Shown here: positions 1,160 through 9,298 of the stretch, piece by piece
Layout of the letters: every line of letters begins with the position of its first letter
Numbering within the stretch: position 1 is the stretch's first letter
Source: Gemmatimonadota bacterium
GTDB lineage: Bacteria; GCA-2686955
Direction: 5' to 3'
NCBI GenBank assembly: GCA_002686955.1
Contig: NYZA01000236.1
Span: 1-14,650 of the forward strand
Length of the DNA stretch: 14,650 nucleotides
Position numbers and translations under genes: made by a program
The notes under the pieces: model-generated
Database searches by the model: none
What the model was told of the DNA's origin: nothing
The model's input: the letters and a program-made list of their open reading frames with translations, nothing else

Positions 1160-1444
1160 ATGACTCTGGACGCTCTGGGAATGGTCGAAACCAAAGGGCT
1201 CATCGGTTCGATCGAAGCGGCCGATGCGATGGTGAAGGCCGCCAAGGTCTCCCTGATCGGCAAAGAGAAGATCGGTGGCGGTTTCGTCACCGTGATGGTT
1301 CGAGGAGATGTGGGGGCGGTCAAAGCCGCCACCGATGCCGGTGCCGCCGCCGCCGAACGGGTCGGCGAGCTCGTATCGGTCCATGTCATCCCGCGTCCGC
1401 ACGCCGACGTCGAGATGATCCTCCCGAACGCCGGCGGCAAATAG
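1160..1444 (+). CDS. BMC-H shell hexamer protein, canonical pore
   Basis: 94-residue single-BMC-domain shell protein of the PduA/EutM type, which forms the hexagonal tiles of the microcompartment facets. Diagnostic stretches are the N-terminal [10 protein letters not shown] (residues 5-14), the helix [12 protein letters not shown] (19-30), the pore loop K37-I-G-G-G41 and the H75-V-I-P-R-P-H81 edge strand. The Gly-rich pore is the usual small-metabolite pore. The start at ATG 1160 is supported by GGAGAAG five bases or less upstream; an upstream in-frame ATG at 1064 would add 32 non-homologous residues. It is the first gene of the operon, 22 bases before a paralogous BMC-H gene. Confidence 0.97.
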
Positions 1445-1466
1445 CGCGTCGTCGCGAGGGCCCAGC

Positions 1467-1895
1467 ATGGGAGACGATCGCGCACTCGGAATGGTCGAGA
1501 CCGAGGGCCTCATCGCCGGCATCGAAGCCGCCGACGCCATGGTGAAGGCGGCGAAGGTGCGGCTCGTCGAGCGGGAGGTCACCGTCGCCAAGCTGGTCAC
1601 TATCAAGGTGGCCGGCGAGACCGGCGCCGTACGGGCCTCGGTGGAGGCCGGCGTGGCGGCAGCCAGAAAGGTCGGCACCGTGGTATCGAGCCATGTCATC
1701 CCCCGCCCCCACGAAGATGTGGAGAAGATCATCTATCCGGAGCTGCGGCACAACCCGGCACCCGACGGAGAGCTCGACTCGTTGACGGTTGCGGAGCTGC
1801 GCCGCCGCGTTCGCGCGATCCCCGACAGCGGTCTCTCCGGCCGCGACATCTCACGGGCCAGCAAGGATCAGCTCATCGCTGTGCTGCGTGGCTAG
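1467..1895 (+). CDS. BMC-H shell protein with C-terminal SAP/Rho_N-like extension
   Basis: 142-residue BMC-H paralogue of the preceding gene. The BMC domain spans residues 5-92 (A6-L-G-M-V-E-T start, H76-V-I-P-R-P-H82). Two features set it apart. The pore segment is V38-T-V-A-K42 in place of K-I-G-G-G, so the central pore should have different size and polarity. A roughly 50-residue tail follows the domain: an acidic linker (93-105), then a predicted helix-turn-helix at 106-140 ([10 protein letters not shown]...SKDQLIAVL) resembling the SAP/Rho_N/HeH fold, in which two helices of this pattern bind nucleic acid or protein. The fold resemblance is my reading of the motif and is unproven. In hexamers the tail would give six copies per tile. 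A short GGGC/GCCC hairpin (1897-1909) sits between this gene and the dehydrogenase gene. Confidence 0.95.
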
Positions 1896-1928
1896 AGGGC
1901 GGCCCGCCCGAGCACGGAAACCCATGCC

Positions 1929-3461
1929 ATGTCCTTCGACCCAGATCTGAAGGCGATCCAAGAGGTTCGCGACGCACTTGGGGCCGCCCACTCGGCCCAA
2001 AAGCAGTTCGCGGAGACTGATCAGGCCCAGGTCGATCAGATCGTGGGCGCGATGGCCCACGCCGCTCGGAACGAGATCGAATCGCTCGCCCGCCTCGCCG
2101 TCGAAGAAACGGGAATGGGGATCTACGAAGACAAGATCGGCAAGAACCGCTTTGCCGCCGTCGACGTCTACGAGCACATCCGCTCCATGCGCACGGTGGG
2201 AATCCTCTCGGAGTCTACCGAACGCGGAATCGTAGAGATCGCTCAGCCGATGGGGGTCGTCGCCGCGATCATTCCGACCACGAACCCCACCTCCACGGCG
2301 ATCTACAAGATCCTCATCTCGGTCAAGGCCCGAAACGGGATCGTGATCTCGCCCCACCCGCGCGCCAAAGGGTGTATTCGCCGCACAACCGAGCTCATGG
2401 TCCACGCCGCGCGCGGGGCCGGCGCCCCCGATCGACTGATCTCGTGTCTCGAGAATCCCACGCTCGAGTCCACCCAACATCTGATGTCGCACGATCTCAC
2501 TGCTGTCATTCTCGCGACGGGGGGCTCGGGATTGGTCAAGGCGGCCTACTCCAGCGGGAAGCCGGCCTTCGGAGTCGGTCCCGGTAACGTGCCGGCCTAC
2601 ATCGACCGCTCGGCTGATGTAGCCAAGGCCTGCCGCGACATCATCACCGGCACCGCCTTCGACAACGGAACGATCTGCGCGTCGGAGCAGTCGGTCGTCG
2701 TCGACGCCCCGGTCGAAGAAGAGGCCCTTCGCTCTTTCGAGGCAGCCGGTGGGTACATTCTCAGCCCCGAGGAAAAAGCGCGCCTCGAGCCGATCGTCGT
2801 CAAGAAGAGCGGCGCGGTCGATCCCGCAATCGTTGGCCAGCATGCCCGAGATATCGCCCGAAAGGCCGGGATCCAGGTTCCCGAGGGCACCAAGGCCCTG
2901 ATTGCCCGCCTCGACCGGGTCGGCAAGACCGAGGAGCCCCTCTCGATCGAGAAGCTCTCGCCGATCCTGGGCTTCTACGTGGTCGCCGACTGGGTCCGCG
3001 GCTGCGAACGCTGCATCGAACTGCTGCGCTTGGGGGGCATGGGTCACACTCTGGCCATTCACGCCACAGACGAATCGGTCATCCGGGAGTTCGGTTTGAA
3101 GAAGCCGGTTTTCCGGATCGTGGTGAACACCCCCTCGACCCACGGCGCGATCGGTCTGTCCACAGGTCTTGCCCCGGCCATGACCCTCGGCTGCGGTGCG
3201 GTTGGCGGCAACATCACCGGCGACAATGTCTCGCCTCTGCATCTGATCAACACGAAACGCTTGGCCTACGGGATCAAAGAGGTCGAGCTGGCTCCCCGTG
3301 CATCGGAAGGCGGGCTCCGCGCCGACGGGCGGGTCGGTCCCACTTGCCGGAGCGAAGCATCGGCCGGCGTAGACGCGGGTGCGTCGGTCGGTCACGCGCT
3401 GTCGGAATCCGACATCGAGCGGATCGTGGAGGACTTCCTCCGCGAGCGGCGGAGCGGGTGA
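1929..3461 (+). CDS. CoA-acylating aldehyde dehydrogenase (PduP/EutE-type) with C-terminal encapsulation peptide
   Basis: 510-residue enzyme converting an aldehyde, NAD+ and CoA into acyl-CoA, the core oxidation step of metabolosomes. Family features are IPTTNPTSTAIYK (115-127), the glycine-rich FGVGPGNVP (214-222) and the catalytic cysteine C250 in the NGTICASEQS segment. The catalytic domain ends near residue 456. A disordered Gly/Ala/Arg-rich linker (457-490) follows, then a terminal amphipathic helix, residues 491-507 (core D-I-E-R-I-V-E-D-F-L), which is a textbook encapsulation peptide for packing cargo against shell proteins. The substrate aldehyde cannot be told from sequence. The stop overlaps the PduL start by four bases (GTGA), indicating coupled translation. 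Confidence 0.96.
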   Translation: MSFDPDLKAIQEVRDALGAAHSAQKQFAETDQAQVDQIVGAMAHAARNEIESLARLAVEETGMGIYEDKIGKNRFAAVDVYEHIRSMRTVGILSESTERGIVEIAQPMGVVAAIIPTTNPTSTAIYKILISVKARNGIVISPHPRAKGCIRRTTELMVHAARGAGAPDRLISCLENPTLESTQHLMSHDLTAVILATGGSGLVKAAYSSGKPAFGVGPGNVPAYIDRSADVAKACRDIITGTAFDNGTICASEQSVVVDAPVEEEALRSFEAAGGYILSPEEKARLEPIVVKKSGAVDPAIVGQHARDIARKAGIQVPEGTKALIARLDRVGKTEEPLSIEKLSPILGFYVVADWVRGCERCIELLRLGGMGHTLAIHATDESVIREFGLKKPVFRIVVNTPSTHGAIGLSTGLAPAMTLGCGAVGGNITGDNVSPLHLINTKRLAYGIKEVELAPRASEGGLRADGRVGPTCRSEASAGVDAGASVGHALSESDIERIVEDFLRERRSG

Positions 3462-4258
3462 GCGAGCGGAACGCGCCACCGACTCTTCTGGCGCTCCAGG
3501 ACTATGTGTTCCACCGGCCCGTGCCGGTCGGCGTTTCGAATCGGCATGTCCATCTCTGCGATGCCGACATTTCCCGGCTTTTTGGCCCCCGCCACCTTCT
3601 CTCCAAACGCCGCGATATCGTGCAAAAAGGTCAGTTCTCTTGCCAGGAAGTGGTGACCGTGGCCACCTCGGCCGGCGTGCTGCGAGATGTCCGCGTCATG
3701 GGACCATCGCGCGCCCGCACCCAAGTGGAGCTCGCCCCTTCCGATGCCCGGGAGCTTGGATTGCGCGCGCCGTTGCGCCCTTCCGGCGATACGAACGACT
3801 CCGCGGGGTGCGTCCTCATCGGTCCAAAGGGCTCCATCGATCTCGCCGCTGGAGTGCTGATCCCCGAGAGACACCTGCACATGTCGCCGAGAGACACCGC
3901 CTTTTTCGGTGTTGCGCAGGGCGATCGACTCCGGGTCGCGGTGCCGGGTCGACGCGGGGGCCTGCTCGCGGATGTCCTTGTGAGGGTTCATGAGCGATTC
4001 GTGCTCGAGCTTCATCTCGACACCGACGAAGCGGGAGCACTGCTCGCGCGCAACGGCGACTTGACCTACGTGGTCGACGACGAGAGGCTCGGAGTCGACT
4101 TGAACCTCCGCCTGGCGCGGCCGCCGGGAGGGCGACGCCTAATGACCGAAAGCGAGCTCAGGCGCGTCGTTCGCACCGAAGGACGGGTGCGAATCCCCCA
4201 CGGTGTGCTTCTCACGCCATCGGCGCGCGATCTCGCCCGGCGACTGAAGCTCGACTGA
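3458..4258 (+). CDS. pduL: PduL-type phosphate acyltransferase with EutQ/EutT-like C-terminal mini-domain
   Basis: 266-residue phosphotransacylase that converts acyl-CoA plus phosphate to acyl-phosphate, freeing CoA for the dehydrogenase. It shows both PduL half-domains: PVGVSNRH30-V-H32 and the second R-H139-L-H141-M, plus H186 in ELHLDTDEA; these histidines belong to the di-zinc site. The GTG at 3458 is chosen because it overlaps the dehydrogenase stop by four bases with GGAG just upstream; an in-frame ATG at 3344 would lie deep inside that gene. The N-terminus lacks an obvious encapsulation helix. The C-terminus (229-266, MTESELRRVV...LTPSARDLARR) is extra to standard PduL and resembles the N-terminal segment of EutT (ITEAWLR...LTPSAREL) and of EutQ. 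BMC-P follows with a one-base overlap. Confidence 0.95.
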   Translation: MSERNAPPTLLALQDYVFHRPVPVGVSNRHVHLCDADISRLFGPRHLLSKRRDIVQKGQFSCQEVVTVATSAGVLRDVRVMGPSRARTQVELAPSDARELGLRAPLRPSGDTNDSAGCVLIGPKGSIDLAAGVLIPERHLHMSPRDTAFFGVAQGDRLRVAVPGRRGGLLADVLVRVHERFVLELHLDTDEAGALLARNGDLTYVVDDERLGVDLNLRLARPPGGRRLMTESELRRVVRTEGRVRIPHGVLLTPSARDLARRLKLD

Positions 4259-4593
4259 TGTTCATCGGACGGGTCGTCGGCACGGTTTGGGCAACCAAGA
4301 AGACGGAGAACCTGGACAACTTGCGTTTTCTGGTCGTCCATCCCGTCAACCTGAACAAGGCGCCGAACACCGATATCGTGGTTGTTGCCGATCGCCTCGG
4401 CGCCGGTCCCGGCGAGCTGGTGATGTGTGCCTACGGGCACGCCGCTCGCACCGCCGTGGGAGATACCGACCAATCGATCGAGGCGGCCGTCGTTGGCATC
4501 ATCGACTCCGTCGATATCGACCAGGCGGAGGTCGAAGCGATCGAGAAGCGGTCCGCGGGAAGCCTGGCGATGAACAACGACGGGAGGAGATAG
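4258..4593 (+). CDS. BMC-P (EutN/CcmL) pentameric vertex protein
   Basis: 111-residue pentamer-forming shell protein that caps the vertices of the polyhedral compartment. Family features are the opening F-I-G-R-V-V-G-T-V-W-A-T-K-K (2-15), the A44-D-R-L-G-A-G-P-G-E53 loop and the closing V79-G-I-I-D83 strand. The last 25 or so residues are a short polar tail. It is the only pentamer gene in the window, so by itself it can close the shell. The ATG overlaps the PduL stop by one base (TGATG), and the next gene starts one base after its stop, so PduL, BMC-P and the ACT protein are tightly coupled. Confidence 0.96.
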   Translation: MFIGRVVGTVWATKKTENLDNLRFLVVHPVNLNKAPNTDIVVVADRLGAGPGELVMCAYGHAARTAVGDTDQSIEAAVVGIIDSVDIDQAEVEAIEKRSAGSLAMNNDGRR

Positions 4594-4594
4594 C

Positions 4595-5008
4595 TTGGAG
4601 CTCGAAAGAGACGACGTACGGGCCATCGTCGAGGATGTGCTCGACTCGTACCAGACTGGAGGGTGCGTGCAGCGGCACGAACGAGCCGAGGTCACCGAGA
4701 CCGAAGCCGCCGCCCCCCGCACCGGCGCGCCGGTGAGCCACAGGGTCATCATCACCGCGCTCGGCCGCAACGCCCCCGGGATCGCGTCCGGTGTGACCGG
4801 GGCCTTGGCCGACGTCGGCGCGGATATTCTCGACATGAGCCAGACCCTTCTGGGCGATTTCTTCACGATGATCATAGTGGCCGATCTTTCGACCGCGACC
4901 ATCGATTTCGGAATGGTCCAGGAACATCTGGCGGATCGCGGTGTTGAGCTGGGCGTTCGAATCGTCGCCCAGCACGAAGACGTCTTTCGCTACATGCACC
5001 GCATTTAG
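4595..5008 (+). CDS. ACT-domain protein (UPF0237) with N-terminal encapsulation-peptide-like helix
   Basis: 137-residue protein. Residues 48-137 form a UPF0237-type ACT domain (VIITALGRNAPGIASGV, then DILDMSQTLLGDFFTMI and the terminal QHEDVFRYMHRI), a small ligand-binding fold that usually senses amino acids or related metabolites. Ordinary UPF0237 proteins are about 90 residues and begin at the ACT domain. Here about 47 extra residues precede it: an amphipathic helix at 2-20 (core D-V-R-A-I-V-E-D-V-L) and a polar linker (21-47). The helix matches the aldehyde dehydrogenase C-terminal encapsulation peptide. The TTG start is well supported: GGGAGGAG lies at 4582-4589 and the previous stop ends at 4593. 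UPF0237 genes are commonly next to UPF0210 genes, as here. I infer that this is BMC cargo with a regulatory or enzyme-partner role. Confidence 0.92.
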   Translation: MELERDDVRAIVEDVLDSYQTGGCVQRHERAEVTETEAAAPRTGAPVSHRVIITALGRNAPGIASGVTGALADVGADILDMSQTLLGDFFTMIIVADLSTATIDFGMVQEHLADRGVELGVRIVAQHEDVFRYMHRI

Positions 5009-5020
5009 GGTCCGCACAGT

Positions 5021-5080
5021 ATAGCTAGTGATCTTGGCATCCCATCTGCGGCACATCTGGGCGCCAAGATCACCAGCTAT
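5021..5080 (+). repeat. Long inverted repeat (hairpin) between ACT and UPF0210 genes
   Basis: An 18-base left arm (5021-5038, ATAGCTAGTGATCTTGGC) pairs with a right arm (5063-5080) with a single mismatch (5027/5074). The 24-base loop can add a CCCA/TGGG inner stem (5041-5044 with 5058-5061). No T-run follows, so it is unlikely to be a plain intrinsic terminator. It fills most of the only large gap (103 bases) within the operon's second half. It could be an mRNA processing or stability element, a protein-binding operator, or a small palindromic repeat element. The loop also holds a weak sigma-54-like TGGCAT...CTGC match (GG 5036-5037, GC 5048-5049). Confidence 0.8.
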
Positions 5081-5111
5081 TCCTGAGTGGACCCATGGAG
5101 CAACCGAATCG

Positions 5112-6473
5112 ATGTCCTGGAGCCGCGACGAAATCCTCGAAACCGTGCGGATGCTCGAGACCGAGCATCTCGACATCAGAACCGTGACCCTGGGAATCAG
5201 CCTCCTCGATTGTGCCGGCGGCGATGCTGGCCGCGTCTGTCACCGTGTCGCGGAGAAGATCAGCTCGTACGCGGCGAACTTCGTCCACCAGGCGAGACGG
5301 GTCGAGGCCGACTACGGCATTCCGATCGCTAACAAGCGGATCTCGATCACGCCGGCGGCGATCTTCGGCGCGGGCCTCGACGCGGACGGATTCGTGCGGC
5401 TCGCCGAGACGCTCGACCGGGTGGCCGAGGAGATCGGCGTGGATTATTTGGGCGGTTTTTCCGCTCTCGTGCACAAGGGCTTCTCGCGGGGCGACCTCGC
5501 CTACTTCGAGGCGCTCGCCGAGGCGCTCGCGACCACCAAACGGGTTTGCGCATCGGTCAATGTGGCCACCACGACGGCCGGCATCAACATGGACGCCATC
5601 GCGCGCCTGGGCACACTCATCAAAGACCTCGCCGAGCGCACCCGCGGAGAGGGTGGAATCGGCTGCGCGAAGCTCGTCGTCTTCGCGAATGCGCCCGATG
5701 ACAACCCCTTCGTCGCGGGCACTTTTCATGGCGTCGGCGAAGCGGAGTGCGCCGTAAACGTCGGCGTGAGCGGCCCCGGTGTGGTTCGCGCGGCCCTCAC
5801 GCCGTGCGCCGGCATCGACCTGGGCTCACTCGCCGAGGTCGTAAAACGGACCGCATTCAAGATCACCCGTCTCGGCGAGATGATCGGGCGACGGGTCGCC
5901 GAGCGGCTCGGTGTCGATTTTGGGATCGTCGATGTCTCGCTCGCTCCCACTCCCGCGGCGGGGGATTCGGTGGCCGACATACTCGAGCTCATCGGGATAG
6001 AGCGAACCGGTGCGCCGGGTACGACCGCTGCGTTGGCTCTGCTCACCGATGCGGTGAAGAAGGGCGGCGCGATGGCAACGAGCGCGACCGGTGGCCTTTC
6101 CGGCGCTTTCATCCCAGTCTCTGAAGACCAAGGCATGATTCGGGCCGTGCGCGAAGGGGCACTCTCTCTGGAGAAGCTCGAAGCGATGTCGGCCGTATGT
6201 TCGGTCGGCCTCGATATGGTCGCCGTGCCGGGCGACACCCCCGCCTCGACCATCAGCGGCATCATCGCCGACGAGATCGCGATTGGCGTAATCAATTTCA
6301 AGACCACCGCGGTTCGGATTCTCCCCCTCCCGGGAATGAAGGCCGGAGAATCGGTCGACTACGGTGGGCTCCTCGGCGAAGCGCCGGCGATGCCGGTCAA
6401 CCCGTTCAGATGCGACGAATTCGTCGCCCGCGGAGGCCGGATCCCCCCTCCGATCCGATCGATGAAGAACTGA
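5112..6473 (+). CDS. UPF0210/DUF711 family protein (PFL-like fold)
   Basis: 453 residues, the normal length for UPF0210. Family landmarks in order: D21[13 protein letters not shown]34, N74-K-R-I-S-I-T-P81, F191[12 protein letters not shown]204, N216-V-G-V-S-G-P-G-V224, A278[14 protein letters not shown] and the C-terminal G441-G-R-I-P-P-P-I. Members have a barrel related to pyruvate formate-lyase glycyl radical enzymes (structure known for a pneumococcal protein) but no established reaction; I see no RVxGY-type glycyl radical motif here. ATG 5112 is chosen from family homology and GGAG at 5097-5100; the open frame extends upstream to 5028 inside a hairpin. No encapsulation helix is seen at either end, so if encapsulated it would have to ride on its ACT partner. 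It is the last gene of the BMC operon. Confidence 0.93.
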
Positions 6474-7782: not shown

Positions 7783-8580
7783 TTGCTCAACTTCGATATC
7801 TGCTTCCGGTCGACCTTCCTCCGGCGCGACGTTTCGGTCTGCTGGAATGAGACAGCCTACGCTCCGCCGCGCGAGATCGAAGATAGAGTCGCGAGACTTT
7901 GGAAATCGGCCCTGGCGAAGGCCAGTCATCACGGCCAAAGCCTCTTTGCGGGACCACTCTGTCGGCTCGATGACCACCAAATCGCGGGCGACCGTCTTTT
8001 CCTGTCCCTCTCGATGACCGACTACCGGGATTTGCAGGGAACGAGCGGGTCGGCATGGCCGGGTGGTCTGCCGCGAGCCGCGCGGGCCGACGGAATTGGG
8101 GTCAACTCCGCGATCGTCACTGCCGATCGGCAGCTCGTGCTCGTCCGCAGGAGCGAGTCGGTCTACGAGAGCCCCGGCACCATAGACACCGGTGGCGGAC
8201 ACATCGATCCCATGTCACACAGGAGTGGAGGACGACCCGATCCCTTCGCCGCGATCGAGTCGGAGATCCGTGACGAGTTCGGATTGGTCCAGTCGGAGCT
8301 CGAAGAGACGCGGCTTCTGGGCTTGGCGCGGCATCGCCCCGGCGGAAAGCCGGAGCTGCTCTTTCTCGCCGAGATCTCCCTTCCCTTCAGTGTGCTTCCA
8401 GGTCGACTGGGGTCGGCGATCGAGGGGAGCGAGACCGCGGAGCTGATGGCGGTTCCCCTGGTCGATGCCGAAGCTGCGCTCATCGCGCACGAGCACGAGC
8501 TCTCCCCCTCGGGGCAGGCCTCGATCTACTTTGCGCTCAGAGAATGGGAGCGCACTGGAACTCTGGATCGAGCTCGGTGA
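7783..8580 (+). CDS. Nudix hydrolase, NUDT22-like
   Basis: 265 residues. The N-terminal region (residues 1-90, ending in L-S-M-T-D-Y-R-D-L-Q-G-T) resembles the NUDT22-type domain that precedes the Nudix fold. The Nudix domain (105-255) contains G138-G-H-I-D-P, an insertion rich in S/G/P, and then A157-I-E-S-E161-I-R-D164-E165-F-G167-L168, a degenerate Nudix box with Ser for the usual Arg and Asp for the first Glu of EE but with metal-binding E161 and E165 kept. NUDT22 relatives hydrolyse UDP-sugars; the substrate here is unproven. The TTG at 7783 is the first start after an in-frame stop at 7771 and keeps the whole N-terminal domain, though no Shine-Dalgarno site is evident. Its 3' end overlaps the opposite-strand gene by 44 bases. 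Confidence 0.85.
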   Translation: MLNFDICFRSTFLRRDVSVCWNETAYAPPREIEDRVARLWKSALAKASHHGQSLFAGPLCRLDDHQIAGDRLFLSLSMTDYRDLQGTSGSAWPGGLPRAARADGIGVNSAIVTADRQLVLVRRSESVYESPGTIDTGGGHIDPMSHRSGGRPDPFAAIESEIRDEFGLVQSELEETRLLGLARHRPGGKPELLFLAEISLPFSVLPGRLGSAIEGSETAELMAVPLVDAEAALIAHEHELSPSGQASIYFALREWERTGTLDRAR

Positions 8581-9298
8581 GCTCCGAGATCAGGCTGTTC
8601 AGGCGGCTCTTTACACCGGGGGCGCCACCGTCGCTTTGCAGATAAAGGGAGTACAGGTCGAGGAAATCGTCCCGCTTGCGCGCGATGCTTCCTTGATTGC
8701 CGATCGCGTTGACGTGCCGCATCAGGTGGAAGAGATCCCCCTCGCGCAGCCGAGGAGTCAGCCCAAGATGTTCTCGGCACGCATGCCGCACGATGCGCGC
8801 GTACTTGTCCAGATCCTGCGCGAGCTTTCCCAGAATCTCCGCGACACCCGCGTCGCGCCGGGCGAGCCGCCGCAGCAGATCGGCGGCGAACATGTAGTAC
8901 ATGCGCGCCCGTCCCACCCAGTAGTCCGGGCGGTGCTCGTAGTAACGCAAGGGACGCACGGTTCCGGCACCCTCGTCGAAGATGGCGAAGCGTGCCACGA
9001 TCGAGTCGGCGTTCGCCTGGTAGATCGTCGCCTTGCGGCGTTCGCCACAGTCTTCCGTCACTGCCGCGACTTCGCGGTCGCTCTCTCTCACCAGTTCCGA
9101 CCGCGCCCTTACCCTCTCGGGATCGACGAAGCTGACCATGAGGTCGGCGAGATAGACATTGACGTCCTCGTCGAAGTAGGGGCTGTTCGATTCCAGACCC
9201 AGGGTCAATCTCGATTTGAGAAGGGCGTTGACCATGAAGAACGACGTGGGTTCCCTGACACCTTGGGGGTGATTCAGATCCACGTAGCGATCCCTCAT
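8537..9298 (-). CDS. Conserved hypothetical helical protein
   Basis: 253 residues, function not recognised. The sequence is soluble-looking and mainly alpha-helical: an N-terminal region (1-65) with FDEDVNVYLADLMVSFVDPE, a central segment with RPLRYYEHRPDYWVGRARMYYMF (about residues 118-140) rich in Tyr/Arg, and a C-terminal half (141-240) of regular amphipathic helices. No signal peptide, membrane segment or catalytic motif stands out. ATG 9298 has AGAGGA five bases upstream on the minus strand, a good ribosome site. Its last 44 bases overlap the end of the Nudix gene in convergent orientation. A sigma-54-like element lies upstream at 9351-9364. Balanced amino-acid use and the strong start signal argue that it is real. 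Confidence 0.8.
   Translation of the reverse strand: MRDRYVDLNHPQGVREPTSFFMVNALLKSRLTLGLESNSPYFDEDVNVYLADLMVSFVDPERVRARSELVRESDREVAAVTEDCGERRKATIYQANADSIVARFAIFDEGAGTVRPLRYYEHRPDYWVGRARMYYMFAADLLRRLARRDAGVAEILGKLAQDLDKYARIVRHACREHLGLTPRLREGDLFHLMRHVNAIGNQGSIARKRDDFLDLYSLYLQSDGGAPGVKSRLNSLISELTELDPEFQCAPIL

Follow-up and report, generated by a model that had tools for sequence, protein, structure and literature searches.

A probable FRAG-like bacterial microcompartment with an ACT-DUF711 accessory pair in a Gemmatimonadota bacterium

Introduction

What are a UPF0237 ACT-domain protein and a UPF0210 (DUF711) protein doing in an operon for a bacterial microcompartment (BMC)? The question is raised by a run of seven genes at positions 1160 to 6473 of a 14,650-nucleotide stretch of DNA from a Gemmatimonadota bacterium (contig NYZA01000236.1). 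We refer to the whole stretch as the window. The window is all of contig C236; the draft genome that it comes from measures 4.28 Mb and is 84.5% complete. A sequence-only reading of the window had proposed that the pair may supply the signature chemistry of an undescribed type of BMC, or the control of that chemistry. Based on gene content, a tag-like architecture, co-occurrence with BMCs, a diagnostic residue and a protein fold, all established by computation, we think it probable that the run belongs to a FRAG-like deoxyribose BMC in which ACT and DUF711 form an encapsulated or shell-tethered, ligand-regulated accessory and not the signature enzyme. If so, two very widespread protein families without a settled function would gain a clear physiological setting.

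A tag-like extension on the ACT protein

We found that the run was as described in the sequence-only reading. Profile searches against Pfam and NCBIfam confirmed every gene in the order BMC-H, BMC-H, acylating aldehyde dehydrogenase (ALDH), PduL, BMC-P, ACT and UPF0210. That is, an acylating ALDH and a phosphotransacylase, the core of a metabolosome, are present beside shell genes. The junctions from ALDH to ACT are close to zero, as had been claimed: ALDH and PduL overlap by 4 bases, PduL and BMC-P overlap by 1 base, and 1 base separates BMC-P from ACT. The ACT gene (4595..5008, +; PF13740; PRK00194/NF001220 score of 90.6 against a cut-off of 74) starts with TTG at 4595. After a gap of about 100 bases comes the gene for DUF711 (5112..6473, +; PF05167, 598 bits; NF003700, 699.7 against a cut-off of 440), which starts with ATG at 5112 within a longer GTG open reading frame (ORF) beginning at 5028; its product is untagged. 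Among the genomes compared, one relative (sister genome G001) is from the same family. It has BMC-H, BMC-H, ALDH and PduL at the end of one contig (C623), and the end of DUF711 at the end of another (C611), followed by the same downstream genes as in the window. Because G001 keeps the run across two contig ends, and because BMC-P, ACT and DUF711 also lie side by side in five genomes of another phylum (see below), the arrangement in the window is not due to chance.

The ACT protein of the window has an architecture like that of an encapsulated cargo protein. We tested for a tag following the published definition of encapsulation peptides (EPs) (PMC8217296). The protein fits this architecture (a terminal helix of about 15-20 residues and a flexible linker), with an N-terminal EP-like helix (residues 5-21), a disordered linker, and the ACT domain (residues 50-135). 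A model from AlphaFold2 shows the N-terminal helix and, with confidence, the ACT domain; between them, residues 22-44 are modeled at very low confidence. In addition, the tag resembles that of the ALDH in the window, with which it has an IVED core in common (shuffle p 0.0004).

ACT proteins paired with DUF711 come in two forms. Free forms are about 89-97 amino acids and unextended. Tagged forms are about 140-150 amino acids, with an N-terminal extension of 45-60 residues in which one or two SEExIRxIT..AI.ELG-type helices precede a variable linker. We found tagged forms in the window, in five genomes of a second small phylum (that of genome G052), in six genomes of Ignavibacteria/Bacteroidota, and in one genome of Zixiibacteriota. 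Among the genomes tested, tagged ACTs were always in genomes that have BMC genes. BMC genes were present in 7 of 7 genomes with an ACT extension and in 5 of 33 with a free ACT (Fisher p 4e-5, the Zixiibacteriota genome being counted as tagged). An inventory of four BMC domains, which we read as two BMC-H and one two-domain BMC-T, was found in 7/7 tagged genomes (the six of Ignavibacteria/Bacteroidota and the one of Zixiibacteriota) and 0/33 free-ACT genomes (p 5e-8; the count in Zixiibacteriota may be inflated by contig ends). The five BMC-bearing genomes with a free ACT all have larger numbers of BMC domains.

The two forms also differ in a loop of the ACT domain, G-x-[D/N]-x-x-G. The variable residue is Asn in all 13 tagged forms scored and Asp in all 73 free forms. 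This loop binds ligands, and ACT domains are typical ligand sensors. Since the changed residue lies in the ligand-binding loop, it is plausible that tagged ACTs bind a changed ligand.

The pair in other genomes

The pair recurs with shell genes in other lineages. Among 386 relatives, BMC-P was found in 94, DUF711 in 34, and both in 19, a 4.7-fold odds of co-occurrence (Fisher p 3e-5, not corrected for phylogeny). BMC-P, ACT and DUF711 are contiguous in all five genomes compared from the phylum of G052, so that gene order, which the sequence-only reading had singled out for comparison, is conserved in another phylum. The window BMC-P vertex protein (4258..4593, +; PF03319, 95 bits), the fourth BMC-P of its genome, is 60-72% identical to the BMC-P adjoining ACT in those five genomes. 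There, ALDH-PduL, DeoC-BMC-P (except in G386, where DeoC was not found), PduS-BMC-T and BMC-H pairs sit away from BMC-P-ACT-DUF711. In the Zixiibacteriota genome, the tagged ACT gene comes directly after PduS and BMC-T.

Most copies of the pair have no such company. When a species genome collection was scanned for similarity to DUF711 alone, 80 loci came up; in nearly all of them ACT is directly upstream and there is no BMC gene within 10 kb. Free pairs are in chromosomal housekeeping neighborhoods that give no metabolic hint. None of the ordinary sugar phosphate utilization (SPU) loci that we inspected had ACT or DUF711, and in the papers searched we found nothing tying UPF0210, UPF0237 or ACT to BMCs. 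The sequence-only reading had held that the pair would be an incidental neighbor if related genomes had the BMC core without it. This was found in part: DUF711 is missing from 75 of the 94 relatives that have BMC-P.

Several observations weigh against an encapsulated or shell-tethered pair. The amphipathicity of the window ACT helix is not by itself above that of shuffled sequences (p 0.23), and other cargo tags mostly are above. The tagged pairs of Ignavibacteria/Bacteroidota have no shell genes within 10 kb, and in genome G054 DUF711 has no neighboring ACT. The ACT of genome G349 (L163:1781-2314, -) has a TPSARD-type N-terminal mini-domain instead of a helix tag, resembling the end of the window PduL, and keeps Asp in its loop. 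Most of the comparison genomes are drafts. Shared history could also explain part of the co-occurrence. Eleven of 14 BMC-linked DUF711s form one clade, with full support in the DUF711 tree, and the Fisher tests therefore overstate independence. The tree puts the window outside this main clade. Its placement is unsure because its branch is long, and a test of all 14, window included, as a single clade did not reject that grouping (AU p 0.40).

It is also conceivable, if unlikely, that ACT-DUF711 serves as a sensor or regulator tethered to the shell and turned toward the lumen or the cytosol, with no catalysis in the pathway. The sensing habit of ACT domains, the changed loop residue, and contiguity with genes for vertex and trimer shell proteins speak for this explanation. 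However, DUF711 keeps more than 100 invariant residues in a 42-row alignment, which suggests that catalysis has been retained.

Still less likely, in our view, is that a widely conserved housekeeping module came to lie beside shell genes incidentally, with an N-terminal extension unrelated to encapsulation. Most ACT-DUF711 pairs are indeed free and without a metabolic neighborhood, and in Ignavibacteria/Bacteroidota even the tagged pair is away from shell genes. In contrast, the extension is confined to BMC-bearing genomes among those tested, there are two separate contiguities with shell genes (BMC-P in one, BMC-T in the other), and the similarity of the ACT and ALDH tags within one genome comes together with the diagnostic change of residue.

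A predicted deoxyribose route encoded at several loci

The genome has at least three BMC loci, of which the window run is one. A second (C127) has genes for a pyrimidine-nucleoside phosphorylase, DeoC, two BMC-P, RpiB, a third BMC-P, and a cytidine deaminase; the families were confirmed with profiles except for cytidine deaminase, which was read from the sequence. A third (C68) encodes PduS and a two-domain BMC-T. DeoC scored 290 with its equivalog model (cut-off 117). The window ALDH (1929..3461, +; PF00171) is of the acetaldehyde type. It is closest to the acetylating acetaldehyde dehydrogenase model TIGR02518 (603 bits, just under the cut-off of 620), and has a C-terminal EP-like helix, SESDIERIVEDFLRER. 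PduL (about 3458..4258, +; PF06130, 206 bits; NF011652, 215.5 against a cut-off of 209) has a C-terminal LLTPSARDLARRLKL motif. Because the genome encodes DeoC, an acetaldehyde-type ALDH and PduL, the predicted route from deoxyribose-5-phosphate through acetaldehyde and acetyl-CoA to acetyl-phosphate is complete without DUF711, as it is in the sugar phosphate utilization type of BMC. We saw no alcohol dehydrogenase in the BMC loci of this genome; the whole genome was not searched for one.

The same parts are found in related genomes. Of 16 genomes searched, 15 had relatives of DeoC, and in nearly all of these the N-terminus is extended and EP-like; the sixteenth, G386, gave no DeoC and is 67% complete. 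Every complete ALDH of the window type in related genomes has the EP-like C-terminal helix. By identity, this type of ALDH is not exclusive to genomes with DUF711 and BMCs, as EUT/GRM-like enzymes reach 46-52%.

Based on these results we infer the direction of the pathway, and propose that the metabolosome is split and FRAG-like, with the window run as its main locus. DeoC would supply acetaldehyde from deoxyribose-5-phosphate, the window ALDH would turn out acetyl-CoA, and PduL acetyl-phosphate. PduS, encoded beside the trimeric shell protein, probably deals with electrons. We further infer, from the tag, the loop and the pairing of the genes, that ACT is encapsulated, contacts DUF711 and is regulated by ligand. 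The N-terminal EP-like helix would make ACT into cargo, and ACT, the usual genetic partner of DUF711, would probably deliver DUF711 to the lumen or to the inner shell. In either position, ACT-DUF711 would act as a ligand-regulated accessory with an Asp-to-Asn change in the ACT loop, and not as the producer of the aldehyde. This proposal suggests how a cytosolic pair could join an organelle, by a tag on one partner and one diagnostic residue change.

We put forward more tentatively a broader version, in which the system is a variant BMC of several lineages that takes in part of the FRAG group. The EP on ACT would have imported UPF0210/UPF0237 into a deoxyribose metabolosome, the ACT loop would have been adapted, and DUF711 would use its fold, that of ribonucleotide reductases (RNRs), for non-radical chemistry on a metabolite of the pathway.

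Fold of DUF711

The sequence-only reading had pointed to the PFL-like glycyl radical fold of UPF0210. The fold is borne out by our results and the radical motif is not. The AlphaFold2 model of DUF711 (pLDDT 90) has the ten-stranded barrel of RNR/PFL type. It matches 2HA9 at Z 53; RNRs follow with Z of at most 15.7, and a single glycyl radical enzyme was matched at Z 13.7. In a Foldseek search, nothing other than 2ha9 and a single class III RNR fell below E 0.001. RNRs and glycyl radical enzymes carry a thiyl Cys in the loop that joins strands five and six. In DUF711, this loop has an invariant N...DNPF.AG..HG. No Cys is conserved in the stretch inferred to be the finger loop (residues 193-212, placed by the order of strands in the model and not by superposition); the invariant Cys34, Cys146 and Cys363 lie outside it. 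None of 90 DUF711 sequences had a glycyl radical motif near the C-terminus, and we rejected the possibility that DUF711 is a glycyl radical enzyme. Only the fold is shared.

Could the pair nonetheless be the signature enzyme, with DUF711 as a lyase, radical or otherwise, that makes the aldehyde under the control of ACT? DUF711 shares the barrel and sits in the core operon next to a tagged ACT, but this seems very unlikely: DeoC gives acetaldehyde in the same genomes, the radical motif is missing and no Cys is conserved where the finger loop is inferred to be, no activase was recognized in the window, and DUF711 is ~60% identical to free forms from organisms without BMCs, so it was not reshaped for a substrate specific to BMCs. 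The sequence-only reading is partly supported. The predicted EP-like tag on ACT and recurrence across lineages favor the pair as a real part of the BMC; DeoC and RpiB, whose genes lie among three BMC-P genes, speak against it as a substitute signature enzyme. The sequence-only reading had also held that a standard signature enzyme just outside the locus would make the pair an incidental neighbor. This too was found in part, as DeoC is encoded elsewhere in the genome.

There is a second, distant subfamily of DUF711 proteins of about 380-410 amino acids (E about 1e-80), at G040:C107, G105:C4 and G199:C328. In three loci from Lachnospiraceae (L060, L066 and L095), PduL is about 4-5 kb downstream of a free ACT-DUF711, and the region elsewhere holds acetate kinase and phosphotransacetylase.

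Comparison with known microcompartments

We compared the system to the SPU BMC (Axen 2014, PMC4207490; Sutter 2021, PMC8217296). Both have DeoC (pfam01791) and RpiB (pfam02502) with BMC-P genes, PduL, PduS and BMC-T, and at C127 a DeoC-type aldolase and an RpiB-type isomerase stand beside shell genes as in SPU loci. However, the window ALDH is on another trunk (EutH/acetaldehyde type), is about 30% identical to SPU ALDHs, and is parted from them by a fully supported branch (SH-aLRT 100). We rejected membership in SPU on the basis of this tree. Other differences are the C-terminal EP on the ALDH, the splitting of the genes over several loci, the addition of tagged ACT and DUF711, and a BMC-H with a SAP-like tail.

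FRAG BMCs have scattered shell genes, a BMC-P triplet, and an ALDH near some shell genes, and their hosts are Ignavibacteriae and candidate phyla; these loci were defined by shell-protein composition, and Sutter et al. did not assign a signature enzyme (PMC8217296). Our system is like FRAG in its scattered shell genes (in its own draft genome, and in G054 and G391 on long contigs), in host range, in an ALDH near some shell genes, and in the BMC-P triplet, which is at C127 with one more BMC-P in the window. It differs in having ACT/DUF711, which the main text of PMC8217296 does not mention. We found nothing useful on FRAG in the literature after 2021. The 2021 catalogue left FRAG-type BMCs without a named signature enzyme; for these, our proposal offers a testable pathway from deoxyribose-5-phosphate to acetyl-phosphate.

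The UPF0210 protein SP0239 (2HA9) and a UPF0237-type ACT protein (1ZPV) are of the same families and have the same folds as the window pair, and the pairing is that of the free ACT-DUF711 pairs. The 91-residue ACT chain of 1ZPV is unextended like the free forms and unlike the window ACT, and no BMC role is described for either protein. Glycyl radical enzymes and RNRs have the ten-stranded barrel in common with DUF711, which differs in lacking their radical motif and a conserved Cys in the inferred finger loop.

Other genes of the window and satellite loci

Two BMC-H genes begin the run. BMC-H1 (1160..1444, +; PF00936, 98 bits) is EutM-like (PRK15474, 134.1 against a cut-off of 133) and is 82-98% identical across the relatives checked, with G396 (72%) and G349 (69%) as exceptions. 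BMC-H2 (1467..1895, +; PF00936, 85 bits) has a C-terminal SAP/HeH-like tail, with a weak HeH/LEM match (E 0.037). The tail (window 1740-1895; homologues in L169, L240, L242, L245, L216, L220, L223, L227, L230 and L233) is conserved in 11 genomes and absent from G054 and from the SPU BMC-H genes checked. Perhaps BMC-H2 is a nucleic-acid-binding shell protein comparable to EutK.

One RpiB (L105:7811-8614, -) has DGAG where RpiB enzymes usually show CGTG/CGSG, so the catalytic Cys is replaced. Its N-terminus has an ITPLAADAI motif resembling the TPSARD tail of PduL. Immediately upstream of the seven genes, the window encodes an HEPN protein and a nucleotidyltransferase (MNT) (93-876, -), likely a toxin-antitoxin module. 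A 253-amino-acid ORF without a Pfam match (8537-9298, -) is at the same position in G001.

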